NCBI GenBank assembly: GCA_000746015.1
Contig: JQKK01000020.1
Location: 1-64,000 of the forward strand
DNA from: Lachnospiraceae bacterium MA2020
Lineage (GTDB): Bacteria > Bacillota > Clostridia > Lachnospirales > Lachnospiraceae
Direction: 5' to 3'
Length of the DNA stretch: 64,000 bases
Shown in pieces: positions 7,933 to 29,939 of the stretch; the first letter of the stretch is position 1; the number at the start of each line of letters is the position of its first letter. The position numbers and the translations under genes were made by a program. Under the pieces are notes generated by a model that had not been told where the DNA came from, made no database searches, and saw nothing but the letters and a program-made list of their open reading frames with translations.

Positions 7933-7946
7933 ACTAATTCTCCTAT

Positions 7947-9002
7947 TTATTCTCCATACATTTTTACTCTCATCTTTTCCAACTCTGGTAACTGCCCCAT
8001 ATCCATCCAATCATTTTCACTCACTGGGAATACGGCCACACGCTTTCCTTTTTGGCGTTCCATCTCAACAATATCCGGAAAACCAATTGATACTCCATCC
8101 TCGATGTCGTCTATAACCTCTGGTTCAACAATATATATACCTGTGTTTGTCAGGAAGGACATCAATGGTTTCTCCTTCATATCCTCTATTGCACCATTTA
8201 AGCCCATCTCTACAACACCGTATGGAATATTAATATTCTTATATGCACAAATCATTGTGATTACATTACCATTTTCCTTATGGAACTTCACCATGCTTTC
8301 ATAATTAGCAGTCAGTAATGCATCACAGTTAGCAAAAAAGAACGTATCTTTGAATTTTCCTCTTAAAAGACTTAACCCACCACCTGTGCCTAGTGGCTCC
8401 TCCTCGTCATACCATGATATATTGTAATCATTTTCATTATCGGCAAAATACGCTTTCATCAAGTCTTTTTTATAATTAACAATAACATGAAACTCATTAC
8501 AGTTATAAGATTGATACTCCTTCATAATATGCTCAATTATTGGAAGATCCCCAACTGGTATAAGAGGTTTCGGAAGAACGCGTGTAAATGGATCCAATCG
8601 AGTTCCTTTACCGCCTGCATTAATAACCACAGGAATATTTAATGAATTACGTTCTTTCCGTGTATTATCACCTGTTTCACCCAAATAAACATCTACTATC
8701 TTCTCATTCTCATCCACTAACGGGATGACTACATAATTTTTCTTGTGATATAGCTGTCGAGCTTCTTCAATTGAATGGGCCACACGCGGAGATTTATTTG
8801 CTGCATCAACTGACATACTATCCATCTTTCCACCCGCTAGAAGAAAACGTCTAATGTCACCGTCTGTAATGCATCCAAAAATCTTCCCGTTACCATCCGT
8901 AAGAAATAATATTCCGTATGAATTAGTATCAATTTTCTGCATTGCTTCAGATACAGTTAAGTTGTCTTTTCCTATAAACTGCTGCAGTTCCCAATTATTC
9001 AT
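7947..9002 (-). CDS. ptmE: PtmE-type glucosamine-1-phosphate guanylyltransferase
   Basis: N-terminal paired CBS domains (about residues 10-115, with GCITDGDIRRFLLAGG) are joined to a nucleotidyltransferase domain starting at VVINAGGKGTRLDPFT near residue 125, with PKPLIPVGDLPI following. This CBS-NTase layout is that of PtmE in Campylobacter, which makes the GDP-amino sugar that enters the legionaminic pathway. The length is 351 residues. The ATG overlaps the legC stop by 8 bp. Its presence argues for a GDP-linked rather than UDP-linked route. Related proteins are also annotated simply as sugar nucleotidyltransferases. Confidence 0.75.
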   Translation of the reverse strand: MNNWELQQFIGKDNLTVSEAMQKIDTNSYGILFLTDGNGKIFGCITDGDIRRFLLAGGKMDSMSVDAANKSPRVAHSIEEARQLYHKKNYVVIPLVDENEKIVDVYLGETGDNTRKERNSLNIPVVINAGGKGTRLDPFTRVLPKPLIPVGDLPIIEHIMKEYQSYNCNEFHVIVNYKKDLMKAYFADNENDYNISWYDEEEPLGTGGGLSLLRGKFKDTFFFANCDALLTANYESMVKFHKENGNVITMICAYKNINIPYGVVEMGLNGAIEDMKEKPLMSFLTNTGIYIVEPEVIDDIEDGVSIGFPDIVEMERQKGKRVAVFPVSENDWMDMGQLPELEKMRVKMYGE

Positions 9003-10173
9003 TAGCCAAACTCCTAAGAAGTGCTTTCACTTCATCTACCACGTACTTAATCTCTTCCTCTGTTATCTGTGTTGTAGAAGGAATGTTGAGAATCCTACTT
9101 GCATAATAAGGTGCTTTTTCAAGCTTGTAGGTCACTTCACCCTCATACGGTTTCTGCTCATTGATCAGCCCCCAGATTGGTCTAGTTTCCATTCCCCGCT
9201 CACGAAGAGCAATAATAATATCCCTCATAGTAGCCTTGATATAATTCCTATCTATGCAAAGGCTGTAAAACCACTTATTAGAAGCTGTTCCTTCTCTAAA
9301 CGGCATGAGTTTACCGTACTCAAAACCAGAAAACAGTTTTTCATACAAATCGTAATTCTTCTGCTTTCTTTTAATGAACTCTGGTAATTCTTCCATCTGA
9401 GCTACACCAAGCGCTGCCTGAAGGTTTGTCATACGATAGTTATATCCAATCTCATCATGAATGTAGTAATGAGGATCTGTTTTAGCCTGAGTTGAAAGGA
9501 ATCTGAGATGGTCTACTACTTCCGGCTTATTTGATGTTACCGCACCACCACCACCGGTTGTTATTATCTTATTACCATTAAAACTATAGCATCCAAAATC
9601 ACCGATAGTACCAGCATACTTATCCTTATATTTTCCCTCTGTGTACTTCGTACCAAGTGCCTCAGTAGCATCCTCTACTACCTTGATGTTGTACTTTTCA
9701 GCTGTTTCCATAATAGATTCCATGTCAGCCATATTGCCGAACACATGAACAACCACAAGGGCCTTAACAGGTGCTCCCTTATAGTTAAGTTTCTCTCCAT
9801 CCCATTCACACTCTTCTTCACAGAACAAGCGAAGCTTAACGGGATCCATGCAAAAACTATCATCACAATCAATAAATACCGGTGTTGCAAACTGATACTT
9901 CACAGGATTTACCGCTGCTATGAAAGTAAGAGGCGGGACTATGACAACATCTCCTGGCTTCACTTCCGCTTCCACAAGACTCAAATGTAAAGCAGATGTT
10001 CCACTTTGACATACAGCCACATTTGGAACATTTAAGAACTCTGCCATCTTCTTTTCCATCTGTGTTACATATCCGCCTACAGTTGATACAAAAGTAGAAG
10101 CAATTGCATCCACTACGTATTTTTCCTCATTTCCCTCAAAATTTGGAATTGACAAAGGTATAAACTTTCCCAC
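8995..10173 (-). CDS. legC: LegC-family PLP aminotransferase
   Basis: DegT/DnrJ/EryC1-type sugar aminotransferase that adds an amino group to a 4-keto sugar nucleotide made by the neighbouring dehydratase. The N terminus IPLSIPNFEGNEEKYV with TFVSTVGGYV resembles the LegC subgroup. PLP contacts are seen as VAVCQSGTSALHLSL, VVEDATEALGT and the lysine-bearing CYSFNGNKIITTGGGG. The length of 392 residues is typical. The start is GTG at 10173, with AAGGATGG 8 nt upstream. A 75-bp gap separates it from the dehydratase gene and nothing notable is seen in that gap. Confidence 0.85.
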   Translation of the reverse strand: MGKFIPLSIPNFEGNEEKYVVDAIASTFVSTVGGYVTQMEKKMAEFLNVPNVAVCQSGTSALHLSLVEAEVKPGDVVIVPPLTFIAAVNPVKYQFATPVFIDCDDSFCMDPVKLRLFCEEECEWDGEKLNYKGAPVKALVVVHVFGNMADMESIMETAEKYNIKVVEDATEALGTKYTEGKYKDKYAGTIGDFGCYSFNGNKIITTGGGGAVTSNKPEVVDHLRFLSTQAKTDPHYYIHDEIGYNYRMTNLQAALGVAQMEELPEFIKRKQKNYDLYEKLFSGFEYGKLMPFREGTASNKWFYSLCIDRNYIKATMRDIIIALRERGMETRPIWGLINEQKPYEGEVTYKLEKAPYYASRILNIPSTTQITEEEIKYVVDEVKALLRSLANE

Positions 10174-16236: not shown

Positions 16237-17268
16237 CTATTTATGCGTCTTTTGCCATTTACGAATACATCCCATACAATACAAACCCAAAAACATTCGT
16301 CTTCTTATCAAAAATAGAACTATCTTCCTCGATTTTGAGATTCCCTGCTGAGATGAGTTTCTCAAAGCATCATCAACGATATCCTCATTCAAATATTGAT
16401 TACATTTTTCTTTTCTTGTTCTATAGCTATAGTTATTATCAGGATTAAAGTATCCACTAATAACAGAAGAAATTACTGCATATAGAATTCTCGTTCTAAG
16501 TAAATCATACAATTGAAAATTCTCATTAAAAATATTGTCATTCTTAATATACTTAAAACAATCAATTACCATTCTAATTGTCTCTTCACTATACGATGAT
16601 GAAATAGATTCTTCGTTATAGGTATAATGATAAAAAACCTCATTAAGAAAAATTGCTGATTTTACCTTACCAAATAACTGAAATGTAAATACAATTCCCT
16701 CAGCACCTTGTTTTAATTCTTCATTATGCCATATGTCATACATCGCGAAAATATCACGTTTTATCAATTTAGCAGTTGCTGTAGAAATATTACTATTATA
16801 ATTTAGAACTTGCTTTTGAAGCTCTTTACATTCGTTCTGATCATATAAATAATTATCTTTTATATGATATTTATATGGAATACTTTCATTCTTAAAATCT
16901 TTTGTCATCCCAAACATAACAATTTGAGAACCACTTTTTTCTGCAATTTTATAAGCTTCTTCGCAACAATCTCGTTCTATCCAATCGTCACCATCAACAA
17001 ACATTATATATTTCCCTGATGCTGCTTTTACTCCCGCATTTCTAGCCGATGCCAATCCACCATTCGACTTGTGAATTACCTTGATTCTGGAGTCTTCTTT
17101 TGCAATTTCATCACAAAAAATACCAATATCATCCGGAGAACCATCATCGACAACAATTATCTCGATTTTTCTAAGAGTTTGAGCCGACAAACTTAAAAGA
17201 TTTTTTTTTATATATGGTTTTGGTACTTTATATACCGGTACTATAATACTTATGAATGGAATTCCCAT
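16237..17268 (-). CDS. Family 2 glycosyltransferase
   Basis: Inverting GT-A transferase. The N-terminal catalytic domain is clear: SIIVPVYK, EIIVVDDGSPDD, SNGGLASARNAGVKAASGKYIMFVDGDDW with the metal-binding DGDD near residue 95. The C-terminal half carries a region typical of capsule GT2 enzymes. The length is 343 residues. It would add one sugar to the growing lipid-linked repeat unit. The start is 4 nt past the stop of the FrhB-like gene, so these genes are co-transcribed. A C-terminal basic end (RKWQKTHK) may touch the membrane. Confidence 0.85.
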   Translation of the reverse strand: MGIPFISIIVPVYKVPKPYIKKNLLSLSAQTLRKIEIIVVDDGSPDDIGIFCDEIAKEDSRIKVIHKSNGGLASARNAGVKAASGKYIMFVDGDDWIERDCCEEAYKIAEKSGSQIVMFGMTKDFKNESIPYKYHIKDNYLYDQNECKELQKQVLNYNSNISTATAKLIKRDIFAMYDIWHNEELKQGAEGIVFTFQLFGKVKSAIFLNEVFYHYTYNEESISSSYSEETIRMVIDCFKYIKNDNIFNENFQLYDLLRTRILYAVISSVISGYFNPDNNYSYRTRKEKCNQYLNEDIVDDALRNSSQQGISKSRKIVLFLIRRRMFLGLYCMGCIRKWQKTHK

Positions 17269-17272
17269 ACAA

Positions 17273-18451
17273 TCATCCTTTTTTTAGCATATGTTTTAAG
17301 GTCTTATCTAAACCTAATCTATTTAAGATTAGTCTTGCTAACTTCATTATCTTTATTTTAATAGTTGTAGGATAATACTTATTAAGTAAATCATCAAAAT
17401 CCATGTGATTATAATCAGAAAAAAATTCTGATCTTTCATAATGAAGTTGAGGCGAGGACTCAAACTCTTTGCATCCTTCTATTGCAATTTCGTAAGAAAC
17501 TACCTTATATTGAAAATGCTCTTTTATCTCATCAAAAACCAATGAACCTTTTTTTGAATGTATTAATACCCTCGTTGTTCCTTTATCTTCATCAAAACTT
17601 TTATCTAACCTATGAATATTAAAACAATCCCAAATAGTAAAATCACTTACTCTTTTCGGACTTCTGAAAACACATGCCGAGCAAGAAGGTCTTATAGTCA
17701 TACCTGAAAAAAACATCCTTAACCATTGATCTGATTCTATTCCACCTCGTTCCTCTCCACTTTTAGAAGATATATACATTGTAGAATATTGATAACCAAG
17801 TTTCTTATCTCTAAATCTAATTATGCTTAAACTACCAAGCTTTTTCTCCTTCATCTTTATATATCTATTCCACACTCCTGGCGAAGGGACTGCTCTACAA
17901 ACCACATCAACCAATATCAAATTTTGATAGTCTTTTCCTAAATACTTAGTTAAAGCATATACTTGGCAAGGTGTCCCACTAAAGCAAACAATCCTTCCTT
18001 CTTCAAGGAATTTTTTTACATCAACAAATGATGTACCCACATCACTCTGAACATATTTGGAATTCCTAAAACGACATAGCTCATTCTTTGAATCCACGTA
18101 TATATGTTTTACTTTATATTCTTCGTCAATACTTACTCCAAATACGACGCCACCCTTTTCTATAACGTATTCTGCGATTACTGAAAAAAAACCACCTGAA
18201 GTACTCTCTTGAAGTACTGTTTTATCTCTATTCTGAACAATCGCTGCTTCTTGCAAAGAATTTTTAGGTTTAGAATAATTAGATATAGGGCAAACTTTTT
18301 CGCAAAGCCCACAATTCACACAATTTGTCGAATCAATGTCAGGATATGTAAAACCTTCCTCATCATATTTCATATTGATACAATTTTTAGGACAAATATT
18401 GCTACATGCACCGCAACCACAGCAATTCTTTTTATCGTTTATCTGAATCAC
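17273..18451 (-). CDS. FrhB/F420-dehydrogenase-like iron-sulfur protein of polysaccharide loci
   Basis: The N terminus holds two 4Fe-4S ferredoxin motifs (CCGCGACSNICPKNC and CVNCGLCEKVCP), followed by the coenzyme F420 hydrogenase beta-subunit N and C domains (SGGFFSVIAEYVIEKGGVVFG, then CFSGTPCQVYAL and RPSCSACVFR). The length is 392 residues. Such proteins recur next to polysaccharide pyruvyl transferases in exopolysaccharide clusters of clostridia and Bacteroides. The exact reaction there is not established. It overlaps the pyruvyl transferase gene by 4 bp, matching that known pairing. A redox step on the glycan or its precursor is an inference only. Confidence 0.8.
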   Translation of the reverse strand: MIQINDKKNCCGCGACSNICPKNCINMKYDEEGFTYPDIDSTNCVNCGLCEKVCPISNYSKPKNSLQEAAIVQNRDKTVLQESTSGGFFSVIAEYVIEKGGVVFGVSIDEEYKVKHIYVDSKNELCRFRNSKYVQSDVGTSFVDVKKFLEEGRIVCFSGTPCQVYALTKYLGKDYQNLILVDVVCRAVPSPGVWNRYIKMKEKKLGSLSIIRFRDKKLGYQYSTMYISSKSGEERGGIESDQWLRMFFSGMTIRPSCSACVFRSPKRVSDFTIWDCFNIHRLDKSFDEDKGTTRVLIHSKKGSLVFDEIKEHFQYKVVSYEIAIEGCKEFESSPQLHYERSEFFSDYNHMDFDDLLNKYYPTTIKIKIMKLARLILNRLGLDKTLKHMLKKG

Positions 18452-19638
18452 AAATCAGTATCCCTTTCATCACTTAAAGAACTTCTTAAATACTCAAACG
18501 ATTGCCTTCTTACTTTATCTAGATTCTCTTTAACTATCTGATAATCTATTTTTCTGTTAAGACATTCTTTTACATCTTCATCTCCTACAAGTACCCTATC
18601 TTCTACTCCAGCTATTTTAAATAGCGTATCTAACCTACTATTAGTTGAAGAAGCTGTCTTACGAGTATATCTTCGGAAAGCAAAAAACACCTTTTCGTAT
18701 TGCATCGAGAATACAGAACAATGGAAAGAATCTGTACATACTATCTGAGCGTTTCTTATAAGATTTAAAAAATCACCTGGATCTATATCATACGGCATGT
18801 AATCAGCATAAGATTCATCACTTTTAACATATTCATCCAAATGTACTAATGCTACAATCTTGTATCCTGTCTTATTCTTCAATCTTTTAACAAACTCTCT
18901 ATGTGGCGGATTGTTTCCCAAAAAATACACGAAGACGTATGGTTCATTTATAATTGGCTCTTTATCCTGTACTGTCATCCACTCTTCGCTCGTAAACAGA
19001 AGTGTCGGATCACATACTACAGGAACTCTTCTATCAGCAATCTTTTCAACCAATTTTTGACCACTTTCTTCGCGTATTCCAATGTGCTTTATACGTTTTA
19101 GAAAAACTGCTGCTTTTGCTGCAGAATCCTTTGGAAGTGTTGATTGACCAAAACTCGTAGCATAAGCTATTGTATTAATACCATCCGGTACCCAATTCAA
19201 CGTATAATAATTCGCTGCAATGTTACCAGGCAACCAAAGTTGATCTGAGCCAACCAAAACCGCTGAATATCTGTCCTTGCAAAAAACTCCTAACTCCTTT
19301 TTTGAATATTGTGGATTGCTCAGCCTAAAATGCTTTTTACCAAATTGATCAAACTTTTTATTACGTATTCTGGTATTTTTTCCATAATCATTCTTAGATA
19401 TTTTCTTCCTTATTACATTTTTAGCCATACCAATTTTAGAAAACAAAATATCCGAAGTAAGAGCAGCCTTTGCAAAATATAACAGCTTTGCATTCCTTAT
19501 TTCTTTCCTAAAGCCTGAAATATCAATTGTTTCATTATCATATCCCAGCTTATCCAATGCCATTTGAGTTGCCAATGCTTGAAGCATACTGCCATAGTTG
19601 TGTTGGAAATAGCACGACACAATACCAATTTTTTTCAT
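18448..19638 (-). CDS. Polysaccharide pyruvyl transferase family protein
   Basis: Protein of 396 residues of the WcaK/CsaB/AmsJ family, which places ketal-linked pyruvate on sugar residues of polysaccharides. Motifs seen are the N-terminal YFQHNYGSMLQALA, VGSDQLW near residue 137, YATSFG, and the C-terminal TDSFHCSVFSMQYEKVFFAF with the conserved S-H pair. Overlaps of 4 bp on both sides (upstream glycosyltransferase and downstream FrhB-like gene) make these three genes a tight translational unit. Pyruvylation would add negative charge to the polymer, but the family also contains members of unknown activity. Confidence 0.82.
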   Translation of the reverse strand: MKKIGIVSCYFQHNYGSMLQALATQMALDKLGYDNETIDISGFRKEIRNAKLLYFAKAALTSDILFSKIGMAKNVIRKKISKNDYGKNTRIRNKKFDQFGKKHFRLSNPQYSKKELGVFCKDRYSAVLVGSDQLWLPGNIAANYYTLNWVPDGINTIAYATSFGQSTLPKDSAAKAAVFLKRIKHIGIREESGQKLVEKIADRRVPVVCDPTLLFTSEEWMTVQDKEPIINEPYVFVYFLGNNPPHREFVKRLKNKTGYKIVALVHLDEYVKSDESYADYMPYDIDPGDFLNLIRNAQIVCTDSFHCSVFSMQYEKVFFAFRRYTRKTASSTNSRLDTLFKIAGVEDRVLVGDEDVKECLNRKIDYQIVKENLDKVRRQSFEYLRSSLSDERDTDL

Positions 19639-20741
19639 CTTGCCAGCTCCTCATAATAATCTAACAGTTTATTTGCTTCAACAGATGAGTCAAATCCAGC
19701 ATTTCTCACTTTATCTCTATGGTCATGTCTATTTTCCATATTTTTTTTCGTTTCTTCCAAAATCTTATCAGCCCATTCCTCAGCGCTCTTATCTAAACTA
19801 ATAAAAAAACCTATATCTTCACATGGAGACGACTCTCTAGGAATCTCAGTTGAAAAAAACATCGGAAGTCCACAGCACTCGGCCTCAACACCTACCACTG
19901 GAAGTCCCTCATAAAGACTAGGCAGCAAAAAACAATCCATGGCATTATAGAACTGATGAATATCTTCACGTTTCCCTAGATTCATCACCTTGTCTTCTAT
20001 GCCATATTTTTTTACTCTATCCATCATCTCTTCTTCAAGATCACCATGACCTATCATCAAAAGTTTTGCATTTGTCTCTTTTTTAGTAATCTCATTAAAG
20101 ATATCTATAATAAATAATGTATTCTTCTGAGCTGTAAAACGACCTATGTGGCCAATCACAATACTGTCTTCTAGTCCAAGCTCACGCCTACATTTCCCCC
20201 TTAATTCCAGTTCATATCTATGCTTATCTGTATCTATAACTGTCTTGAAAACAGCAACTTTACCAGCATCAAACAACTTATCTCCAAACTGCCATCTTCC
20301 ACACACTTCACCATTTGACATATAATGGGTGGCAAAACACTTTGAAAAAGGCTTTAGCATGTTCTTAAGAATATTCTTCTTATCGCTCTTATGCCCCATT
20401 GAAATACTCTCATTGATTCTAACAGGGATTCCACATTGTTTTCCAGCAAACATGGAAAAAATATTCATAGTGCTATTATATGCATGCAGAATCGGATATT
20501 TATTCTCCCTAAAAATCTTCTTCATGGCTTTCATATTTGCAAAGATATTCTGGTATGGTGGTATCATATAAACCCTCCCCCCCAGTTCTTTTATCTCTTC
20601 CATTGGTACAGAATTTGAATCCGTATCACAAAAAAAGTCAAATTGCACCTTGCTTCTATCAATGTGGCGATAATACTCCATTACTAGGTTTTTCTTTCCC
20701 CCCGCATGCATTTTCCCCATGATAACAGCTACTCGTATCAT
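19635..20741 (-). CDS. Family 4 glycosyltransferase
   Basis: Retaining GT-B glycosyltransferase of 368 residues. The N-terminal acceptor domain starts with MIRVAVIMGKMHAGGKKNLVMEYY. The donor domain has IGHIGRFTAQKNTLFIIDIF near residue 200 and the EX7E-type LPSLYEGLPVVGVEAECCGLP near residue 290. It is EpsF-like and would transfer a sugar within the repeat unit. The coding strand contains a G7 run (plus-strand C7 at 20577-20583) and a G6 run (20698-20703), both in frame and possible slippage sites. The start lies 15 nt after the epimerase stop. Confidence 0.85.
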   Translation of the reverse strand: MIRVAVIMGKMHAGGKKNLVMEYYRHIDRSKVQFDFFCDTDSNSVPMEEIKELGGRVYMIPPYQNIFANMKAMKKIFRENKYPILHAYNSTMNIFSMFAGKQCGIPVRINESISMGHKSDKKNILKNMLKPFSKCFATHYMSNGEVCGRWQFGDKLFDAGKVAVFKTVIDTDKHRYELELRGKCRRELGLEDSIVIGHIGRFTAQKNTLFIIDIFNEITKKETNAKLLMIGHGDLEEEMMDRVKKYGIEDKVMNLGKREDIHQFYNAMDCFLLPSLYEGLPVVGVEAECCGLPMFFSTEIPRESSPCEDIGFFISLDKSAEEWADKILEETKKNMENRHDHRDKVRNAGFDSSVEANKLLDYYEELAR

Positions 20742-20756
20742 TTATATACTCATCCT

Positions 20757-21695
20757 TTATAAATCATAATGTACTTTCATAAACTCCGCGGTTTTCTTAA
20801 TTCCTGCCTCAAGGCTAATAGGATTCAAACTTCCATAAGCCGTTTCAAATCTCCTTATATCAAGATAATTGACTGGAACATCGACCTTACGTGCCTCTGT
20901 ATATTTTATATTTAATTTTATAACTAATGCCTTCTCAATCGTATCAAGAACCTGCTTAATACTTGTTCCGTAGCCACAGCCTAAATTAAATGTATGATGA
21001 AAATCTGTTCCATTAACAATCTTTTGAATTCCTTTAATCGCATCATCAATATAGATAAAATCACGAACTACAGAGCCATCACCATAAACTTGAATCTCTT
21101 CCCCCCTTAATGCCTTATATGTGAAAGTAGTAACTGCCCCCAAAACCCCATTTGGTCTCTGGTAAGGACCATAGGGATTAGCAAGACGAATTATTCTATA
21201 ATCCAATCCGTACATATAATTATAGAGATATAGGAGTTTCTCAATGCTTATCTTCTGAATACCATAAGATGATATTGGATTAGTAGGAGTTTTCTCATTA
21301 AGTGGGCACTTTGATTCTTTACCATACACTGTTCCACCCGAACTGATAAATACCACCTTAGATACATTTTTATTGACACAAGCCTCAAACATGTTCGCAG
21401 AGAGGACTACATTCGCCTTCAATTCCTCTGATATATGCTGGTTGGAAGTAGTGGGGACTGTTGTACTCAAGAGATGATAGACCAATTCATGACCTTCAAC
21501 TAATTCTTCATAATCCGTATCCATTGAAAGATCTGATTCAATAATAGTAATATTTGGTATATTCAACTTGATTAACGGTCCAAAATAGGATCTATCCCTA
21601 TCGACCACCGTTATTTCATTTTCCTTATTTTTCGCCAGCTCAATAACAAGGTTTGTTCCAAGAAAACCGGCTGCGCCTAAAATAATTATTTTCAT
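20757..21695 (-). CDS. NAD-dependent epimerase/dehydratase (GalE-like SDR)
   Basis: Extended SDR enzyme of 312 residues acting on a nucleotide sugar. The dinucleotide-binding GAAGFLG lies at residues 7-13, VVDRDRS closes the second strand, SSGGTVYG carries the catalytic Ser/Thr and YGIQK the Tyr-Lys pair. ANPYGPYQR and FIYIDDAIKGI are typical of UDP-glucose/GlcNAc 4-epimerase relatives. It probably supplies a precursor hexose for the repeat unit. It is the first gene of the uninterrupted run down to 2907. The coding strand has a G6 run near 21111-21116. Confidence 0.83.
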   Translation of the reverse strand: MKIIILGAAGFLGTNLVIELAKNKENEITVVDRDRSYFGPLIKLNIPNITIIESDLSMDTDYEELVEGHELVYHLLSTTVPTTSNQHISEELKANVVLSANMFEACVNKNVSKVVFISSGGTVYGKESKCPLNEKTPTNPISSYGIQKISIEKLLYLYNYMYGLDYRIIRLANPYGPYQRPNGVLGAVTTFTYKALRGEEIQVYGDGSVVRDFIYIDDAIKGIQKIVNGTDFHHTFNLGCGYGTSIKQVLDTIEKALVIKLNIKYTEARKVDVPVNYLDIRRFETAYGSLNPISLEAGIKKTAEFMKVHYDL

Positions 21696-21746
21696 TCAGT
21701 CAATTACCCCATCGGAAACATAGTCCAGTCAAATAAATTCAATATG

Positions 21747-21752
21747 ATTATA
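21747..21752 (-). promoter_or_regulatory. Possible -10 element for the glycosyltransferase operon
   Basis: A perfect TATAAT on the minus strand, about 55 bp upstream of the epimerase ATG, within the 141-bp gap after the small acidic gene. No good -35 is seen at 16-18 bp, so the call is weak. Confidence 0.3.
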
Positions 21753-21836
21753 AAAGTCGTGTAAAAAAAATTGTGCACAAATCTTGTTGGAGCTTATAAT
21801 CACACTTTAGTCATCATCCTCTTGATTACTTTCTCA

Positions 21837-22121
21837 TCAAAAATCTTCATGCTCCATGAATTCTTCATAGCTCTCATTTGGCAACAAGTCAGAAGTATCA
21901 TTCATGTCATCAAGCTCCATTTCTAAGTCTTTCAAATTGTCTTTATCAAACAACACCTTCTTAATATCCTCTGACGATTTTATAGCTAAATTCTTTATGT
22001 ACTCAATCCGTTCAGTCGAAGTTTCAAGTTCACCAAATTCATTGAGACTTATAAAAACTTCTATTTCATCCTCAGATTCATCTTTATATCTAACCGTCAC
22101 ATTAACCTCAAACTCATCCAT
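21837..22121 (-). CDS. Small acidic protein of unknown function
   Basis: A 94-residue, strongly acidic protein (many D and E, ending SYEEFMEHEDF) with no membrane segment or known motif. The ATG at 22121 has AGGAGG 8 nt upstream; a GTG three codons earlier overlaps that site and is less likely. It sits between the MBOAT pair and the glycosyltransferase run, in the same direction. I do not recognise the family. Confidence 0.6.
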   Translation of the reverse strand: MDEFEVNVTVRYKDESEDEIEVFISLNEFGELETSTERIEYIKNLAIKSSEDIKKVLFDKDNLKDLEMELDDMNDTSDLLPNESYEEFMEHEDF

Positions 22122-22198
22122 AAAACCCACCTCCTCATAAATTATTTTTCTTAAACATATTTTTAAACTGTACTTTCTTATCTAAATCAAATTGAAGA

Positions 22199-22357
22199 TT
22201 ACCTATCGGATTGTCCTAATACACCCTTTTTAGTGTTTTTTCCAGTTTCCTTGTTCTTAATTATATGTTCCTGCATTTCTGCAAAATACTCATTCCATAT
22301 GTCATACTCCACAAAAACCAATTGCTCACGTTTCAAGATTCCCGTCAGAACAATCAT
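22199..22357 (-). pseudogene. Short coding remnant (52 codons)
   Basis: An open frame reading MIVLTGILKREQLVFVEYDI and ending GVLGQSDR, with believable codon use but no ribosome site. Just upstream in another frame is ATG AAT AAA CGC with GGAG before it, suggesting a frameshifted or truncated small gene. An 11-bp inverted repeat (22383-22407, AATAAACGCTT arms) lies at its upstream edge. The family is unknown. Confidence 0.3.
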
Positions 22358-22707
22358 GTTCAAATCAGTTTGAAACACACAAAATAAACGCTTATTAAGC
22401 GTTTATTCATATCAAAACTCCAATATAATATTTGTAGTATTAACACAATATTTACCCTTTATATATGTGCCAATGCACGATAACACAGTGTAATCATACT
22501 ATATATTTTAATTACATTTGAGATTTTTCTAATATAATATCATGTTTTCCTATATTATTAAACCCCATTTTAGCGCATTTCATATCCCCCGTATACAAGA
22601 TGTTGTTGTTTATATCAAATAAAGAAACAACAACTCATATTTTTTTGCAACAATTTTGACACATTTTTATCACTATACCCGCTCTCCGATGCCTTATACC
22701 TCTTCTC

Positions 22708-22946
22708 TTATACCTGGTTGCCATTCGCATCATATTCAAATTCACGTTTTGCGTATTCATCTCTATCCATCAGATTTCCTACAGTATCATAGAATTCTTC
22801 ACGTATCATCTTGCTGTTGTCATTGTAATACCGCTTAATCTCTGTAAAGCCATCTGTACGCATGACCTGATTGCCACTCACACCATAGTATTTTACATCC
22901 GTAGTATTTTCCTTGACATCAAGCTCATACTTTTCTGATAAGGACA
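22708..22946 (-). pseudogene. C-terminal remnant of a YD-repeat-like surface protein
   Basis: The minus strand reads without stops for about 79 codons: EKYELDVKENTTDVKYYG, then TEIKRYYNDNSKMIREEFYD and REFEYDANGNQV, ending in TAA. The Y-D-x-x-G-N style resembles RHS/YD-type repeats of secreted proteins. A TGA lies directly upstream in frame and there is no start codon, so only a tail is left. The rest of 22411-23090 shows nothing else I can assign. Confidence 0.45.
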
Positions 22947-23097
22947 GAACGGTGACTGTTAATCATCCAGTTTGTACAGAAGCACAACTGTAATCCTATA
23001 TTCCTTTACACTTTTGCGACAGTTGCAAATTGTTTATTTAGAAAATCGCATTTATCATCAACCAGCTATCTAACTATATCCTTATTTATTACAGCAA

Positions 23098-23128
23098 GAG
23101 AGACAGTGAAATATCTCCACTGTCTCTC
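23098..23128 (-). terminator. Hairpin downstream of the SGNH-like gene
   Basis: A perfect 11-bp stem (GAGAGACAGTG / CACTGTCTCTC) starts 8 bp after the stop of the SGNH-like gene. It lacks a clear T run, so it may be a weak terminator or processing signal separating the MBOAT pair from the downstream genes. Confidence 0.5.
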
Positions 23129-23135
23129 AAAATCT

Positions 23136-24725
23136 TTAGTACAAAAATATATCACTAAAAACATACTTCGAATTTGCACTACCTGTATTATCAATATAAC
23201 CGCCATTAAGTATTACTGTAACATTTCCATCAACGTCAGAAAGATCTATAACATATTGATGTTTCTCATTATCTAAGTCTGTATAGTTCTTTTCTACTGT
23301 ACGGATAACCTCGTTATTTTCATTATAAACATATGCAGTCAGTCTCCCATGATCCGCTATCTTTTGACCATAAAAAGAAAGGTAATTATTGTTCCCATCC
23401 ATGTTCAATACAAACTTTGCCCCAACATACTCAATGTCTCTCATGTAATCTGATATCTTTTCACTACTGGCATCTCGTTTAAGACTTCCCTTACAATCTA
23501 TACCAATAACTTTATTATCACTTATAGCATATTCAGCATTCATCAATTCCACACTAACTGTGTCATCATTAAGCACATCCATTGGCCCCACACCAGTTAA
23601 TTCCTTATTCAATAATGCAGCAGCATAATAATCAGCCTCATAATCAACCTGACCATTGAGACTGAGATAGTCATAATTCGAATAAAAGTCATATTCTTTT
23701 TGCAGATACTCATTATAATTATTCTGTGTGATCTGATACTTTCCTTCGTGCATCCATTTAAGCATTAAACTATTTATCCATGTTGCATAATGTAATGTGT
23801 CTTTGTAATTATTTAAGTCTGTCGTTATATCTGTCCTATTATTAAAAGAAAACAGATGAATATTATTATGTGGCAGAATTAGTTCCGTTATATATCTTTC
23901 TGCCTCAATTTGACGTGTCAACTCATTATGATTATATAAGTCACACCACCACGCTATACTATACGGTGTGTAAAAATAATAAAAATCAACATCCTGGAAT
24001 TTATCTGCAAGACTCGTCACATTCTTATCAATATTTTCTTTAATTATGGCTTTTTCCTCATTAGTTAAATGTACATCTCCACCCTTCATCTTATCTACTA
24101 TAACCCCATCTGGATAAACAGAATTTATACCGAACGCGAAACCACTCTGCCATCTTGAATAATCATCGAATGAAGTTATTCCTGAATTAAAGTCTTCATT
24201 ATTGTTGTTTAATGTAAGCTGATATGCTCTGCCAAATATAATATCCCTATTAAAAAGATATTCAACATCGTTAAAAATATTATTATCATACAAGAACGTC
24301 GGATATTTTCCCAAATCCTCACGCATGCAATCAGAAGCATCAAAGAATCGTCCAATATCTAATCCCCTAAGAATTATTTTCAAATTCTTATTTGTTTTCA
24401 ATGCCCGCTCTATATTATCGTTAATTTCCTTATATGATCCACCAGAAAAGGAAACCTTAATTGAATTACATCCGAAAATTTTATCCATCTCACTCGTTCT
24501 AAAATTTTCCGTCATTGAGGTTCCCGTAATCAATGCTTCATAATCAAAATGTTTACAGATGCCATCATTCTGACTACGCTGATTATTCAATGGATAAAAA
24601 TATCTGTTCAAATCCGGCTTATGATAATGAAAATACGGATCAATTCTGTACACCCAGAATCCTAATACACTTAAGGCTGTTATAACTATTATCAGCCATC
24701 CTATCAACCAACTCTTTACTTTCAT
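23136..24725 (-). CDS. SGNH/AlgX-like partner of MBOAT O-acyltransferase
   Basis: 529-residue protein with one N-terminal membrane anchor (residues 5-27, WLIGWLIIVITALSVLGFWV) and an extracellular body. ALITGTSMTENF near residue 65 resembles the block-I serine motif of SGNH/DHHW-like proteins that work with MBOAT enzymes, such as AlgJ/AlgX or DltD-type partners. The C-terminal 140 residues look like a beta-rich add-on domain. I chose 24725 as the start because GAGGGAAAG precedes it; the longer frame overlaps the MBOAT gene. Spacing of 13 nt after the MBOAT stop indicates one transcript. It likely finishes acyl transfer to the surface glycan on the outer side. Confidence 0.65.
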   Translation of the reverse strand: MKVKSWLIGWLIIVITALSVLGFWVYRIDPYFHYHKPDLNRYFYPLNNQRSQNDGICKHFDYEALITGTSMTENFRTSEMDKIFGCNSIKVSFSGGSYKEINDNIERALKTNKNLKIILRGLDIGRFFDASDCMREDLGKYPTFLYDNNIFNDVEYLFNRDIIFGRAYQLTLNNNNEDFNSGITSFDDYSRWQSGFAFGINSVYPDGVIVDKMKGGDVHLTNEEKAIIKENIDKNVTSLADKFQDVDFYYFYTPYSIAWWCDLYNHNELTRQIEAERYITELILPHNNIHLFSFNNRTDITTDLNNYKDTLHYATWINSLMLKWMHEGKYQITQNNYNEYLQKEYDFYSNYDYLSLNGQVDYEADYYAAALLNKELTGVGPMDVLNDDTVSVELMNAEYAISDNKVIGIDCKGSLKRDASSEKISDYMRDIEYVGAKFVLNMDGNNNYLSFYGQKIADHGRLTAYVYNENNEVIRTVEKNYTDLDNEKHQYVIDLSDVDGNVTVILNGGYIDNTGSANSKYVFSDIFLY

Positions 24726-24738
24726 CTTTCCCTCGCAA

Positions 24739-26187
24739 TTAAAATCCAAAATATACAAATATTGATTCCGAACCTAGGCAAAGTACTCCCCACACAAAAG
24801 CCACAGATGCCAATACCATAGATGTCAATCCAAGCCTTTCTCTATTTTTAAGATTGTTCTCTGGAATAAAACTAGTAATTGCCGCGCCAAGCGTAAATAG
24901 CGTCATTTCTAATCCGCGCATATTTTCAGGCAAATACTTCATATGTAACATATTATAAATAAATTGACTTTCAACTATTTTAAATGAATTTATCATCCCA
25001 TCACTTATCGTTGTATTCTGCATTAGAAGTATCTTTAACAATATAGCCTGCCACTGTTCCACAGTTTCAGAACTAAACAGCAGCCATAAAATACTCACTA
25101 AAATGAACGTACCAAGCCACCTCATCGGCAAAAAGATTTTTTCCTCATATTTGTCAAATGTCCTATCAATACAACTAAGTACGCCATGCAAAAGTCCCCA
25201 TAGGATAAATGTCCAATTTGCACCATGCCATAACCCGCTTACCAAAAATACTATGACAGTATTTATATATGTGAAAGCTTTTCCCCTTCTTGAACCACCC
25301 AATGGAATATAAACATATTTTGTAAGAAATCCTGTCAGAGACATATGCCATCTTTTCCAAAAATCTCTTATAGAAACGGCTTTATATGGAGAATTGAAAT
25401 TCATTGGCAAGTCAATATTCAGCATTGAAGACACACCTACTGCCATGTCACTATATCCACTAAAATCAAAATATATTTCAAATGTATAAAATAAAACAAG
25501 CAAAACACAATCCATTGCCGTTGTTGCATCAATATTCTGATAAGCCCATGATACAGCTTTTGCAAATGTATCTGCGATTAGAACCTTTTTTATTAGACCA
25601 AGGCTAAAAAGTTTTATTCCAACAGTTATATTTTTGACATTAGGCTTTTTCCTATCCCCTTCTCCAATTTGTGATATAAAATCAACAGGATCAACTATAG
25701 GTCCCATCACCAATTTCGGAAAGTAAAGTATATAAGCTAAATAATCCATCAAATCATTATTCTTAAGCTCCCCTCTTTCAGTAGCTACAACATACGCAAT
25801 TTGCTGAAAAGTATAAAACGATATTCCTAAGGGAAGTATGATTTCCCGTAACGGATATTCTTTTCCATAAAACAAATTGATATTAGTTATTGCAAAATTC
25901 AGATACTTAAAATAAAGCAATAAACCAACATTTATTACGATTGGAAATGCCATTACAACTCTATTTCTAATGGACAGCTTTTTTATTAGCAAGACGGAAA
26001 AATAGTTAATTAATATGCTTACCCCTATATACGAAAGCATTTCAATCCGTCCTAGTGAATAAAATATTACACTTGAAATTATAATAACCGCTTTCCCCAC
26101 TACTGGATTAACCTTATTCCCAAAGAAGTATAGCAGCACTGTAAGTGGCATAAAATAAAAAATGAAATCATAGCTATTAAACTGCAT
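24739..26187 (-). CDS. MBOAT-family O-acyltransferase
   Basis: Membrane-bound O-acyltransferase of the AlgI/DltB type, 482 residues with about 10-12 hydrophobic segments. Family signatures are FYTFQQIAYV, FFDFSGYSDMAVG-like YFDFSGYSDMAVG, NFNSPYKAVSIRDFWKRWHMSL with the histidine, and VSGLWHGANWTFILWGLLHG with the catalytic histidine. It moves an acyl (often acetyl) group across the membrane for transfer to a polysaccharide by the downstream partner. It is the first gene after the invertible promoter region. The ribosome site is AAGG about 9 nt upstream. Confidence 0.88.
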   Translation of the reverse strand: MQFNSYDFIFYFMPLTVLLYFFGNKVNPVVGKAVIIISSVIFYSLGRIEMLSYIGVSILINYFSVLLIKKLSIRNRVVMAFPIVINVGLLLYFKYLNFAITNINLFYGKEYPLREIILPLGISFYTFQQIAYVVATERGELKNNDLMDYLAYILYFPKLVMGPIVDPVDFISQIGEGDRKKPNVKNITVGIKLFSLGLIKKVLIADTFAKAVSWAYQNIDATTAMDCVLLVLFYTFEIYFDFSGYSDMAVGVSSMLNIDLPMNFNSPYKAVSIRDFWKRWHMSLTGFLTKYVYIPLGGSRRGKAFTYINTVIVFLVSGLWHGANWTFILWGLLHGVLSCIDRTFDKYEEKIFLPMRWLGTFILVSILWLLFSSETVEQWQAILLKILLMQNTTISDGMINSFKIVESQFIYNMLHMKYLPENMRGLEMTLFTLGAAITSFIPENNLKNRERLGLTSMVLASVAFVWGVLCLGSESIFVYFGF

Positions 26188-26213
26188 TTAATGATACCTT
26201 CCAATCGTCGCTC

Positions 26214-26369
26214 AAAAAGGTGTACCTTTTTGGATTTTTTCTTTTGATAAAACAACGAGTGTAATTATATCACTAAACTGGCTAAATATACAGCCTTATA
26301 AGACTTTTATGAAGCGAACGAAGTGAAAAAATCTTCTAATTTTGCTGTCTTAAAAGGTACACCTTTTTG
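26214..26369. promoter_or_regulatory. Candidate invertible promoter segment (serine recombinase substrate)
   Basis: Two 16-bp sites lie in exact inverted orientation: AAAAGGT-GT-ACCTTTT at 26215-26230 and AAAAGGT-AC-ACCTTTT at 26352-26367. Each has palindromic arms around a two-base centre, GT in one and AC in the other. This is the geometry of crossover sites used by small serine invertases, where the central dinucleotide sets orientation. Recombination would flip the roughly 120 bp between them. The segment lies between a serine recombinase and the MBOAT gene and contains a promoter. Both sites are also followed on the plus strand by TGGATTTTT, which is a direct rather than inverted extension, so duplication is an alternative origin. 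Confidence 0.65.
26264..26272 (-). promoter_or_regulatory. Extended -10 promoter inside the invertible segment, facing the MBOAT gene
   Basis: The minus strand reads TGATATAAT, a TG-n extended -10 with a consensus hexamer (26264-26269). The match to a -35 is only partial (TGTATA, 17-bp spacing). In the present orientation transcription would run towards the MBOAT gene about 70 bp away. After inversion it would point into the recombinase 3' end. Confidence 0.5.
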
Positions 26370-26385
26370 GATTTTTGTATTTCAA

Positions 26386-26994
26386 TTAAACTGATTTTTT
26401 ATACCTGCTAGCCTTGTAATAAAACGTAGACTTTGACATTCCACACATTTTAGCTGCCTCTACAACTGAAATATTCTTACTTTCCCAAAGCCGATATGAT
26501 TCATAGAAATTATCCGGCAATGCATGTGATGGTCTGCCAAATTTAACTCCTCTTGCCTTTGCCACTGCAATGCCTTCCGCTTGGCGCATTTTCAAAACAG
26601 CCACTTCTGACTCAGATGTATAGGACAAAAGTGCTAATACCAAATCACTTATAAATGTCCCCAATAAATTCTTCTCACGTCTTGTATCAAGTAACGGCAT
26701 ATCAATAACTACTACATCTGCACCTTTAACCTTAGTAATGATTCGCCACTGCTCACCTAAGTCCTTATAGCTACGCCCTAACCTGTCTATGGACTTTACA
26801 TAAAGCACTGCATTTTCGTTAAGCCTTCGAAGCATTTTCTTATACTGTGGACGATCAAAGTTCTTACCGGTCTGGCGGTCAATATATATGTTCTTCTCCG
26901 ATACCCCTGCCTCTTTCAATGCAATAATTTGACGGTCAATATTCTGTTCAGTAGTACTAATTCGAACATAGCCAAAAACTCGTTGTTTTTCCAT
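26386..26994 (-). CDS. Serine site-specific recombinase (resolvase/invertase)
   Basis: 202-residue small serine recombinase. The catalytic serine is in GYVRISTTEQNIDRQ (residue 13), and the active-site arginines are in VKSIDRLGRSYKDL near residue 66. The C-terminal helix-turn-helix is at VVEAAKMCGMSKSTFYYKASRY. The size fits DNA invertases and resolvases and is too small for a large serine integrase. ATG 26994 has AGGAGG 5 nt upstream. Its stop is only 18 bp from the right inverted site, which supports local inversion as its job. Resolution of a transposon is the alternative, but no transposase is adjacent. Confidence 0.88.
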   Translation of the reverse strand: MEKQRVFGYVRISTTEQNIDRQIIALKEAGVSEKNIYIDRQTGKNFDRPQYKKMLRRLNENAVLYVKSIDRLGRSYKDLGEQWRIITKVKGADVVVIDMPLLDTRREKNLLGTFISDLVLALLSYTSESEVAVLKMRQAEGIAVAKARGVKFGRPSHALPDNFYESYRLWESKNISVVEAAKMCGMSKSTFYYKASRYKKSV

Positions 26995-27177
26995 GATTTC
27001 CTCCTTGAATCTAAAAAAAAAATTAAAAGTAAAAAAGTATTGGCTGACTGTTACATCTACCAATACTTTTCTATCGACATTATTAAGTTAAATCAACCCT
27101 TATGAGTTTTAACCACTGAACATATTTATTCCTGACAAACTATTACAAATTAACTATATAACTCGTTTATCCCTCAC

Positions 27178-27552
27178 TTACAAATACAACCATTCATCAT
27201 CAGTATCCATACCAATCCCATCCTTCTCTGCTGCATCAGTAAGATTTTTGACCATCATATTACAAAGACGCTTCTTATCCTCTTCATGCTCCAGCTTTTT
27301 TATTTGATCAAAACACATCTCCGCACCAAACGCAAGGTAATCGGCACAAAGGTTATTCTTTTCTTCATTCATTACTAAAGCTTTCTCATAAATATTGCCC
27401 CAATATTTTTCTATTTTTTCTATTTTAAAAGCATACTCAGCTTTCAGCAGAAACAATTCCAACGGATAATATCCGTTGTCACTATTCTCAATAATAAGTT
27501 CTATCATATCTTCCTTGGTAAATGCATCAAGGATTTCTCTAATATCATTCAT
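27178..27552 (-). CDS. Hypothetical protein, paralogue A (truncated by a nonsense codon)
   Basis: 124-residue acidic helical protein of unknown family (NDIREILDAFTKEDMIELII, then ENSDNGYYPLELFLLKAEYA). It is a close paralogue of 37648-38058. At the position where the paralogue has GAA (Glu after DEWLYL) this copy has TAA, followed by decayed but recognisable tail codons, so the last dozen or so residues are lost. The start at 27552 follows GGTGA about 11 nt upstream, matching the paralogue's arrangement. As in that copy, it lies downstream of a different unknown gene and next to a 79-bp repeat. Confidence 0.6.
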   Translation of the reverse strand: MNDIREILDAFTKEDMIELIIENSDNGYYPLELFLLKAEYAFKIEKIEKYWGNIYEKALVMNEEKNNLCADYLAFGAEMCFDQIKKLEHEEDKKRLCNMMVKNLTDAAEKDGIGMDTDDEWLYL

Positions 27553-27652: not shown

Positions 27653-28264
27653 TCAATTATCTAGTCTAGTCCAATTTATATCATATGCCAAGTTTCCAAT
27701 GTTAAGATGCTTCGCATCTCCCTCACTATTAAGTTCTTCCTTAATTTTATCCTGCATGTTCTTATAGTCATCAGCACTCAGTCTTGTCCATAAATACGTT
27801 TTACTTTCTTCAAGTTTATCAAGTATTACACTATCTATAGGGCAATCACATTCCGAAAAGTCAATGTGCTTCGCCCCAAGCAAATCATTAAAAACATACA
27901 TGTACTTAAATGTCATATTATACAATTTTTGAGCTAACCCATATGAATTATATGTACGTTTACCATTTTTTGAAAGGATCTCAACTGTATCCTTAGTCCA
28001 AAAGCATCTACTCGCGATTAATCTTATACTTTCTCTATTAAACCTGTATTTATCACCTTCTAAAATTTCAAAAACTTTCTCTACCCTTTCATTTTGCTTT
28101 TTTATCTTAAATTTTCCAACTGCAAATCTTCCACCAATAAGCATATCTCTATCAGCAAGTTTAATACATTTCCGCAGAACCATGTCAGGATCACTCATTT
28201 CCGTGCTCTGACCAAGTACAGCTTGTTTCAAAAAATCCATTACATATTTTTCCTTATCCAACAT
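27653..28264 (-). CDS. Hypothetical protein, 203 aa
   Basis: No family recognised. It is a soluble, charged protein with one central basic stretch (AVGKFKIKKQNERVEKVF) and a W-R-rich end. ATG 28264 has GGAGG 4 nt upstream, so translation is well supported. It is the upstream partner of paralogue A. The equivalent position before paralogue B (38087-38818) is taken by an unrelated gene, so this looks like a variable partner gene. A toxin/immunity or defence role is only a guess. Confidence 0.5.
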   Translation of the reverse strand: MLDKEKYVMDFLKQAVLGQSTEMSDPDMVLRKCIKLADRDMLIGGRFAVGKFKIKKQNERVEKVFEILEGDKYRFNRESIRLIASRCFWTKDTVEILSKNGKRTYNSYGLAQKLYNMTFKYMYVFNDLLGAKHIDFSECDCPIDSVILDKLEESKTYLWTRLSADDYKNMQDKIKEELNSEGDAKHLNIGNLAYDINWTRLDN

Positions 28265-28526: not shown

Positions 28527-29939
28527 CTACAGCACCATCTCCTGCTCTCTTTCTTTGCATGTTCCTCGTTCCTCCATGTTTAAAATTCTATCTACGTCGT
28601 ACTTTGCTGTATGAAATTTCTGCATGTCTTTCTTTGCCTGTCGATACTCGGCATATACCTTGTTCTTATCTTCCATGAGTTTTTCCATCTCTTCATTCAG
28701 CTCTCTGACCTTTGGAATTTTCTTCACTCCAAGTTTTTCAAATGCATCTTTTGCAGCTTTATGTGCAAGTATTGCATCACGATTTTCCTCAAAGAATTTT
28801 TTACTGTACCCTGCTTCTCTGTATCTGATATAAGTATCCCTCGTCCTTGAGTAGTCGAATATAGTTCCACGAAGCTTTTTGATTTCTCTTATCCTCCGCT
28901 CATCTTTCTTTATTCTTTTACTCAGTTCATCAAACTTTGCTGCTGAATTTTTTGTAAGCTCTACCAACTCTTCGTATGAGCTGACACCCTTCTCCTGCAA
29001 AAACATGAGTGCCTTCATCGCGTTCTTCAGATTATATTTCTTTGCCCATATCTCATATCCTTTGCCTTTACCCTTTCGGATAATGTCCTCGATATCAAGA
29101 AGCATGTTAAATTTTTCATCGCTTGCTGTCTTGGTTACTTCAGATTCTTCAACATTTTTTTCAGCATCTTTTGCTACATCACCAAGCTTTTTTCTTATAT
29201 CTTCTTCTCTATAACCATCTCCAAGTGAACGCAGTCTTATAAATCTTTTCTGTCCTTTTCCCTTTAGTGAAGTATATTTTCCTGTCTTAACTTCATACCC
29301 TTGCTCACGAAGTTTATTTAAAAACTCTTCATAACTCTTCGGATTTTTTGCCAGAACTCTATCGACTGTCTCTCTTATCATCTCTCTAGCTGATATACGT
29401 TTTGGATAAACTACTATGTTGTCTCTCTCACGATATGGTCTTGGATTTATGACTGACAGACCATGCTCAAGACATATATAGTCACTGATTCTTTGAAGTA
29501 CAAATGCTGACAAGAAAAAATTTTTGAACTTATGTGTCTCTGAAATATCTACAGCATTGAACAAAATATGACTATGGATATGTGCTCTGTCTGTATGAGT
29601 TGCAACTATAAACGCATGCTTTCCTTTGGTAAATTTCATAGCAGTCTGATATCCTATCCTATTGGCTTCCTCTGCCGTGACCTCTCCAGGCTTAAAGGAC
29701 TGTCGGATCTGATATGCGATCACTTCTCTGTCATAGTGCCGTCTTGCATGCAGCTCATACTGCCTGTGCGATAGAAGGAACTCCTCACTCGCTGTAGCTA
29801 CCTCACAGGCATATGATGTAACAAGTTCCTCATTCCTTGTTTTCTCAGGATTTTTTGCGTATTTCATTCTTGCGTTTAAGCATTGTTTTATGCTCCAGCT
29901 CTTTGATATATGAAGTGGTATAAGTCTTGTTGCTGCCAT
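28527..29939 (-). CDS. MOBP-type relaxase / mobilisation nuclease
   Basis: 470-residue relaxase that nicks one DNA strand at oriT to start conjugative transfer. The metal-binding three-histidine motif is HTDRAHIHSHILFNAVD near residue 120. The catalytic tyrosine is expected in the N-terminal segment, where several candidates exist. The C-terminal half is a long charged coiled-coil region. ATG 29939 has AGGAGG about 10 nt upstream. A terminator-like hairpin separates it from mobC. The gene looks intact, in contrast with the damaged mobC and helicase beside it. Confidence 0.88.
   Translation of the reverse strand: MAATRLIPLHISKSWSIKQCLNARMKYAKNPEKTRNEELVTSYACEVATASEEFLLSHRQYELHARRHYDREVIAYQIRQSFKPGEVTAEEANRIGYQTAMKFTKGKHAFIVATHTDRAHIHSHILFNAVDISETHKFKNFFLSAFVLQRISDYICLEHGLSVINPRPYRERDNIVVYPKRISAREMIRETVDRVLAKNPKSYEEFLNKLREQGYEVKTGKYTSLKGKGQKRFIRLRSLGDGYREEDIRKKLGDVAKDAEKNVEESEVTKTASDEKFNMLLDIEDIIRKGKGKGYEIWAKKYNLKNAMKALMFLQEKGVSSYEELVELTKNSAAKFDELSKRIKKDERRIREIKKLRGTIFDYSRTRDTYIRYREAGYSKKFFEENRDAILAHKAAKDAFEKLGVKKIPKVRELNEEMEKLMEDKNKVYAEYRQAKKDMQKFHTAKYDVDRILNMEERGTCKEREQEMVL

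Follow-up and report, generated by a model that had tools for sequence, protein, structure and literature searches.

A probable phase-variable promoter switch beside a serine recombinase gene in Lachnospiraceae, with recombination sites that may double as a split terminator

The serine invertases Hin and Gin act on inverted sites with palindromic arms and a 2-bp centre, and Hin also moves a promoter. In Bacteroides, the small serine recombinase Mpi flips many scattered promoters of surface genes. In the account of the E. coli fimS switch given in PMC9993118, inversion connects or disconnects the operon promoter and the terminator of fimE. For cwpV of Clostridioides difficile, the description in PMC2784873 places a predicted intrinsic terminator, present in the OFF orientation only, at the junction between repeat and segment, and reports genomic DNA that is mostly OFF. 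A survey of invertons in gut strains ties groups of them to tyrosine recombinases, the word "serine" being absent from its main text (PMC11892184), and a read-based survey lists inversions in Clostridia of eight families (PMC5903667). For the Lachnospiraceae cassette analyzed here, a search of titles and abstract openings in the open-licence literature returned no description, which is weak evidence of absence.

We analyzed a stretch of 64,000 nt (the window) on contig JQKK01000020.1 of Lachnospiraceae bacterium MA2020, whose genome is 3.72 Mb. The recombinase, the sites and the genes next to them are the following:

26386 to 26994, minus strand: small serine recombinase, presumed invertase (202 aa; PF00239, E 1.8e-25)
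26352 to 26369, unstranded: proximal recombination site, nearer the recombinase, one arm of an 18-nt perfect inverted repeat, centre AC at 26359-26360
26213 to 26230, unstranded: distal recombination site, the other arm of the repeat, centre GT at 26222-26223
26223 to 26359, unstranded: invertible segment, about 137 bp from centre to centre, in the ON orientation in the window
26264 to 26272, minus strand: predicted extended -10 promoter TGATATAAT with a weak -35, facing the MBOAT gene, called from sequence
24739 to 26187, minus strand: MBOAT O-acyltransferase, first gene behind the switch (PF03062, E 5e-37)
23136 to 24758, minus strand: partner gene, a 540-aa ORF overlapping the MBOAT gene by 20 nt

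We consider it highly probable that this locus is a phase-variable switch, in which the recombinase flips the 137-bp segment, the promoter drives the MBOAT gene and its partner when ON, and a hairpin is assembled when OFF. The serine recombinase would recombine the two inverted sites at their central dinucleotides. In the ON state, which is the present orientation, the segment promoter would fire across the distal site into the two genes. In the OFF state it would point back toward the recombinase, while the proximal site would gain a T-tailed half-arm and so form a hairpin flanked by a T-run on either side. Such a hairpin would keep transcripts of the recombinase from running on into the target genes and, in the other direction, antisense transcripts from entering the recombinase.

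As with Hin and Gin, the window cassette combines a serine recombinase with inverted sites that have palindromic arms and a 2-bp centre, but its recombinase gene lies outside the segment, and membership of the Hin/Gin family by closest sequence was rejected, the protein being nearer to Sin and Tn3 resolvases. Unlike the many promoters flipped by Mpi, the window site pair is the only one in its genome; the 25-nt site sequence occurred at two places in the 3.72 Mb with up to 3 mismatches allowed, and both are the window sites. Membership of the Mpi family (NF009949) was likewise rejected, with 35.8 bits against an NCBIfam equivalog cut-off of 272. The likeness to fimS and FimE is that one segment shifts a promoter together with the terminator of the adjacent recombinase gene, as set out in PMC9993118 and as proposed here. 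The same account describes tyrosine recombinases, a Rho-dependent terminator and a 314-bp segment, whereas the window cassette has a serine recombinase, and its hairpin, of intrinsic type, would be the recombination site itself. With cwpV as presented in PMC2784873, it would share the making and breaking of a terminator by inversion and the prevalence of the OFF orientation, seen here in 44 of 57 assemblies. For cwpV, the promoter is external to the segment and the tyrosine recombinase RecV is unlinked (PMC2784873), whereas in the window the promoter is inside and the enzyme adjacent. By analogy, the window cassette would work like a blend of fimS and cwpV. What may be new is the unequal tailing of the half-arms, the joint shift of promoter and terminator with a serine recombinase, and the use of the recombination site as a hairpin.

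The inverted repeat at 26213-26230 and 26352-26369 is 100% complementary over 18 nt, with 121 nt between the arms, and the recombinase ORF ends 16 nt from its proximal arm. The sequence-only reading of this DNA had reported a 16-bp site with an exact inverse about 120 bp away, 18 bp from the recombinase, so that the repeat proved slightly longer and slightly closer; the palindromic arms and the GT and AC centres that it had also described were seen as such, both sites being near-palindromic around the central dinucleotide. When the sites were aligned as direct repeats, 23 of 25 positions matched and both mismatches were the central dinucleotide. A deletion between direct repeats was rejected on account of these mismatched centres. 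In the real 64 kb we found one perfect inverted repeat of at least 18 nt with a loop of 30 to 300 nt, against none in 40 dinucleotide shuffles.

Within the segment, TGATATAAT at 26272-26264 on the minus strand points to the MBOAT start at 26187, as had been claimed, and it is kept as TGATATAAT in the related locus L054 and as TGGTATAAT in the same-genus genome G033. Its -35 is poor (TGTATA). A general promoter scan gave 33 promoter-like sites against 35.9 expected by chance and did not list this one, so that the call depends on the extended -10 and on its recurrence in L054 and G033. We infer promoter function from these elements, and inverted repeats bounding a segment with such a putative promoter correspond to a promoter inverton.

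The segment was found inverted between genomes. The comparison set held one genome per species, and orientations were compared between genomes only. In G033, the recombinase (72% identical), the switch, the MBOAT gene (73%) and the partner gene (65%) occur in the same order as in the window, and the inner segment matches that of the window on the opposite strand (77%, E 1.3e-5, with a second alignment of 74% over 50 bp). After computed inversion, the window, L054 and G033 segments align throughout, promoter included; the segment is thus reversed in G033 relative to the window and L054. A second case is a related cassette, in which L058 and L061 show no difference over 400 nt upstream and 44 shared nt downstream, while the segment of one is the exact reverse complement of the other; L060, L062 and L063 share one common sequence over the cassette region, in agreement with L061. 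These two cases supply the reversed segment that the sequence-only reading had proposed to look for in related genomes. The L058 to L063 contigs are listed as representatives of different species, yet their cassettes are practically the same, which may reflect recent transfer or a binning error. Neither alone would yield the exact inversion between L058 and L060-L063.

Segments were aligned among 78 loci with an inverted-repeat score of at least 18 of 30 (62 after removal of identical copies). Between loci, 13 of the 22 segment alignments of at least 50 bp fell on the opposite strand, including the acyltransferase cassettes L028 and L073 and the cassettes of Big_2 proteins L102 and L114, the flanks of which align in the usual way. 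Judged by sequence comparison, both orientations are found in nature, between genomes.

The association of recombinase and sites was also seen across relatives. A site pair lay directly 3' of the recombinase in 57 of 92 distinct loci, against 1 of 90 upstream controls and none of 1840 mononucleotide shuffles. This survey required matching centres, recombinase matches of at least 480 nt and at least 330 nt of downstream sequence, and identical recombinases were counted once. At the other 35 of the 92 recombinase loci no site pair was found, and some of them show single or degraded cores. When the survey was repeated with the arms only being scored, a pair exceeded the threshold in 57 of 99 distinct loci. 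The centres of these arms-only pairs were complementary in all 57 (GT/AC in 37, CT/AG in 3 and the self-complementary AT in 17). Complementary centres are a requirement of recombination by serine recombinases with a two-base overlap.

Sites with the core GTATAC make up 17 of the 57 pairs. This core does not set the direction since its AT centre is self-complementary, and inversion rather than deletion there needs another explanation. At L076, two convergent recombinase copies flank one switch region (286-1600), with long inverted repeats at 382-749/1225-1592 and 760-929/1045-1214. A phage origin was considered and set aside: a scan of viral contigs gave three relatives, none of them among the arms-only site pairs.

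The proposed OFF-state hairpin would be built from two half-arms that are brought together by inversion:

26361 to 26376, plus strand: outer proximal half-arm with T-tail (an A-run on the recombinase-sense strand), half of the proposed OFF-state hairpin
26224 to 26239, plus strand: promoter-end half-arm with T-tail, on the segment, meeting the outer proximal arm only in the OFF orientation

Behind the window recombinase, the hairpin has a computed energy of -4.1 kcal/mol in the orientation present and of -17.1 once the segment is inverted computationally. The corresponding stretch of G033, as found, reaches -17.6 (z -2.93), against a z of -0.18 for the window as found. We oriented 57 cassettes by a simple promoter score alone, OFF being a promoter that faces the recombinase and ON one that faces away; this set left out L039 and L076, which have no GTNNAC core, and three loci with a promoter margin below 0.5. 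As called, 44 cassettes are OFF and 13 ON (p 5e-5). A related cassette in the assembly of Extibacter muris DSM 28560 was likewise scored OFF. The caller makes errors, as L054 was scored OFF by a margin of 0.8 yet is ON by homology to the window; it was kept among the 10 contrary cases of the hairpin comparison. The recombinase-proximal hairpin was stronger in the OFF orientation in 45 cassettes, weaker in these 10 and tied in 2 (p 2e-7). The 57 retain near-identical pairs (L061/L063 and L103/L107), and counts by cluster are therefore also given: with recombinases merged at 80% identity, the hairpin was stronger in OFF in 28 clusters versus 4 of 32 (p 1.4e-5), and at 70% in 11 versus 1 of 12 (p 0.003). 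The loci are related, and clustering corrects for kinship only in part. The rule holds less often in ON-called loci (8 of 13) than in OFF-called ones (37 of 44), and it is weak for sites with the centre AT, with 10 for and 6 against of 18, compared to 32 for and 4 against of 36 with GTGTAC.

Terminator-like structures were also counted, defined by a stem score of at least 10 with at least 5 T in 11. Among the 57 cassettes, 26 have one at the proximal site in the OFF orientation, compared to 4 at the proximal site in ON, 4 at the distal site in OFF and 2 at the distal site in ON; promoter and terminator calls are both simple in-house scores. The four half-arms have about 11 nt in common (consensus near ACTTTTTCGAA), and a T-run beyond this shared part is seen in the consensus of just two of them, the outer proximal and the promoter-end arm, with mean T counts of 4.5 and 4.2, versus 2.6 and 2.2 for the other two. 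The promoter end has the higher T count in 38 cassettes, the lower in 9 and an equal one in 10 (p 2e-5), and in 22 versus 4 of the 32 clusters at 80% identity (p 0.0005). At 70%, neither this excess (7 versus 2 of 12, p 0.20) nor the longest T-run (5 versus 5, p 0.90) was significant, and a coarser count of T-tails gave 19 versus 8 (p 0.03) at 80% and 5 versus 4 (p 0.45) at 70%. A general terminator scan of 20500-27300 returned 2 sites versus 2.2 in shuffles, one of which is the distal site on the plus strand. Across the family, the half-arms are unequally tailed. A terminator-like hairpin tends to be put together behind the recombinase in OFF and is broken up in ON. From the sequence, the switch may move promoter and terminator together.

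We give an even chance to the broader proposal that the switch is widespread in Lachnospiraceae and that its recombination site acts as a split bidirectional terminator, assembled in OFF and dismantled in ON. In OFF, this terminator would separate the recombinase from the target genes and shield it from the flipped promoter; in ON, it would be taken apart, and transcription of the recombinase and of the targets may be joined. A credible competitor, which we rate somewhat below even, is that the segment simply flips with its promoter and that the hairpin difference is a by-product of the half-sites bound by the recombinase, with no role in termination. The 11 nt or so common to all four half-arms mean that some hairpin is expected anyway, and the loss of significance of the T-tail test at 70% clustering fits this explanation; the confinement of the consensus T-runs to the outer proximal and promoter-end arms, and the 26 terminator-like proximal OFF sites compared to 4, 4 and 2 elsewhere, argue against it.

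Whether the segment flips by promoter alone or as a split terminator, it could also have inverted formerly or in relatives and be locked in this strain. Only a single orientation is known for the strain, the window recombinase (P0001) departs from the family consensus around residues 127-136, and the recombinase match of the relative G040 carries internal stops. We nevertheless regard such a relic as unlikely, given the perfect 18-nt repeat and the intact recombinase frame with its conserved residues. In an alignment of 37 relatives, S13 of the resolvase catalytic domain is nearly invariant and R71 invariant, and further residues are equally or almost as constant; we take these to be of the catalytic type of serine recombinases. 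The window gene is also the single match at E 1e-30 or better in its own genome. Presumably, this recombinase is the one that inverts the segment, and does so in this strain.

For the genes under control, we favor the two behind the switch. The MBOAT protein also matches a DltB model, below the cut-off of that model, and is 73-75% identical in G033 and L054, where it lies behind the same switch. The partner protein is 65-66% identical in the two, and no family was found for it in Pfam or NCBIfam. The partner gene is followed by a structure that is a probable transcript end, as predicted from sequence:

23098 to 23128, minus strand: hairpin after the partner gene (-20.9 kcal/mol, z -3.96), with no long T-run

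The partner gene and the next gene run at 21695 are about 1.4 kb apart, and this gap holds a single small ORF with a Shine-Dalgarno-like sequence of its own. Six genes tested within 16237-22130 had no match in an 18.5-kb stretch of G033 in which the MBOAT and partner genes do match. Because of the hairpin, the gap and these unmatched genes, the likely target is a two-gene MBOAT acylation module, and surface acylation would vary with the switch. Control of the whole polysaccharide and nonulosonic locus is very improbable. It is made conceivable by the common strand of all these genes and by the presence in the locus of genes for NeuB, a LegC-type aminotransferase, a glycosyltransferase and a flippase, with the nonulosonic genes at 3607-10173, but it is opposed by the hairpin, the gap with its separately equipped ORF and the six genes tested in 16237-22130. 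Of the original proposal that a recombinase-driven invertible promoter controls the surface locus, the inversion is well supported, through G033 and through L058 versus L060-L063, while control of the nonulosonic and polysaccharide genes is not supported, since the MBOAT and partner genes are the only ones that turned up with the switch in both G033 and L054. For the MBOAT homologues in G003, G027 and G044 (41-55% identity), flanks of 1.5 kb to either side contained no recombinase of this kind; the switch therefore does not invariably accompany this acyltransferase family.

The recombinase sequence was compared with solved structures and matched Sin best (E 6.5e-22), followed by the Tn3 and gamma-delta resolvases (1.6e-18 to 1.3e-17), with weaker matches to the DNA-invertase entries 3uj3 and 4m6f (1.3e-12). 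Its predicted structure (mean pLDDT 80.7, pTM 0.49) has helices at 163-171, 177-184 and 188-201 after a long helix at 110-147, a model in which a short C-terminal helix-turn-helix DNA-binding domain can be recognized. The best full-length Foldseek matches of this model were Sin, a gamma-delta/Hin chimaera and Tn3 resolvase, at TM 0.42-0.50, so the packing of the domains is uncertain. It is extremely improbable that the sites serve resolution, deletion or integration of a mobile element instead of inversion: the closeness to Sin and the resolvases over 3uj3/4m6f and a nearby relaxase gene would fit, but the centres mismatch when the sites are read as direct repeats, relatives show inversion, and the relaxase and the gene at 27653-28264 have no match in the G033 stretch that keeps recombinase, switch and MBOAT gene. 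The relaxase gene, of MobA/VirD2 type, lies upstream of the recombinase at 28527-29939, and a mobilisable element may border the switch.

We examined which genes the cassette precedes in other loci, taking as downstream ORF the longest one starting within 700 bp, in some loci a later gene than the first. Of 56 such ORFs, 50 were searched against Pfam (all but those of L024, L025, L052, L059, L063 and L103), and 30 of the 50 had a family at E 1e-5. These comprised MBOAT (3), Acyl_transf_3 (2), flagellin (4), glycosyltransferases (3) and LicD (1), as well as BspA-type LRR (2), Big_2 (2) and EcoRI-type methylase (2). The variety of these genes suggests that the cassette is a portable module. For rumen and gut Lachnospiraceae, this points to a compact, self-contained phase-variation cassette recognizable from sequence, which precedes acyltransferases, flagellins, glycosyltransferases, surface-repeat proteins and DNA methyltransferases. 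Its orientation can be read from a genome, so that gut genomes and reads already available could serve to test which surface genes are on or off. If the terminator part holds, one short site would combine recombination with transcription insulation, and the split arrangement would allow tight OFF states and possibly feedback on the recombinase.

In two loci (L072:4780-5787 and L089:4799-5785), the cassette lies upstream of the genes for EcoRI-type adenine methylases and could make DNA methylation phase-variable. At L029:648-1190, the cassette is followed by a protein with a NusG domain, and the switch could reach a distant operon if this protein is a specialised antiterminator.
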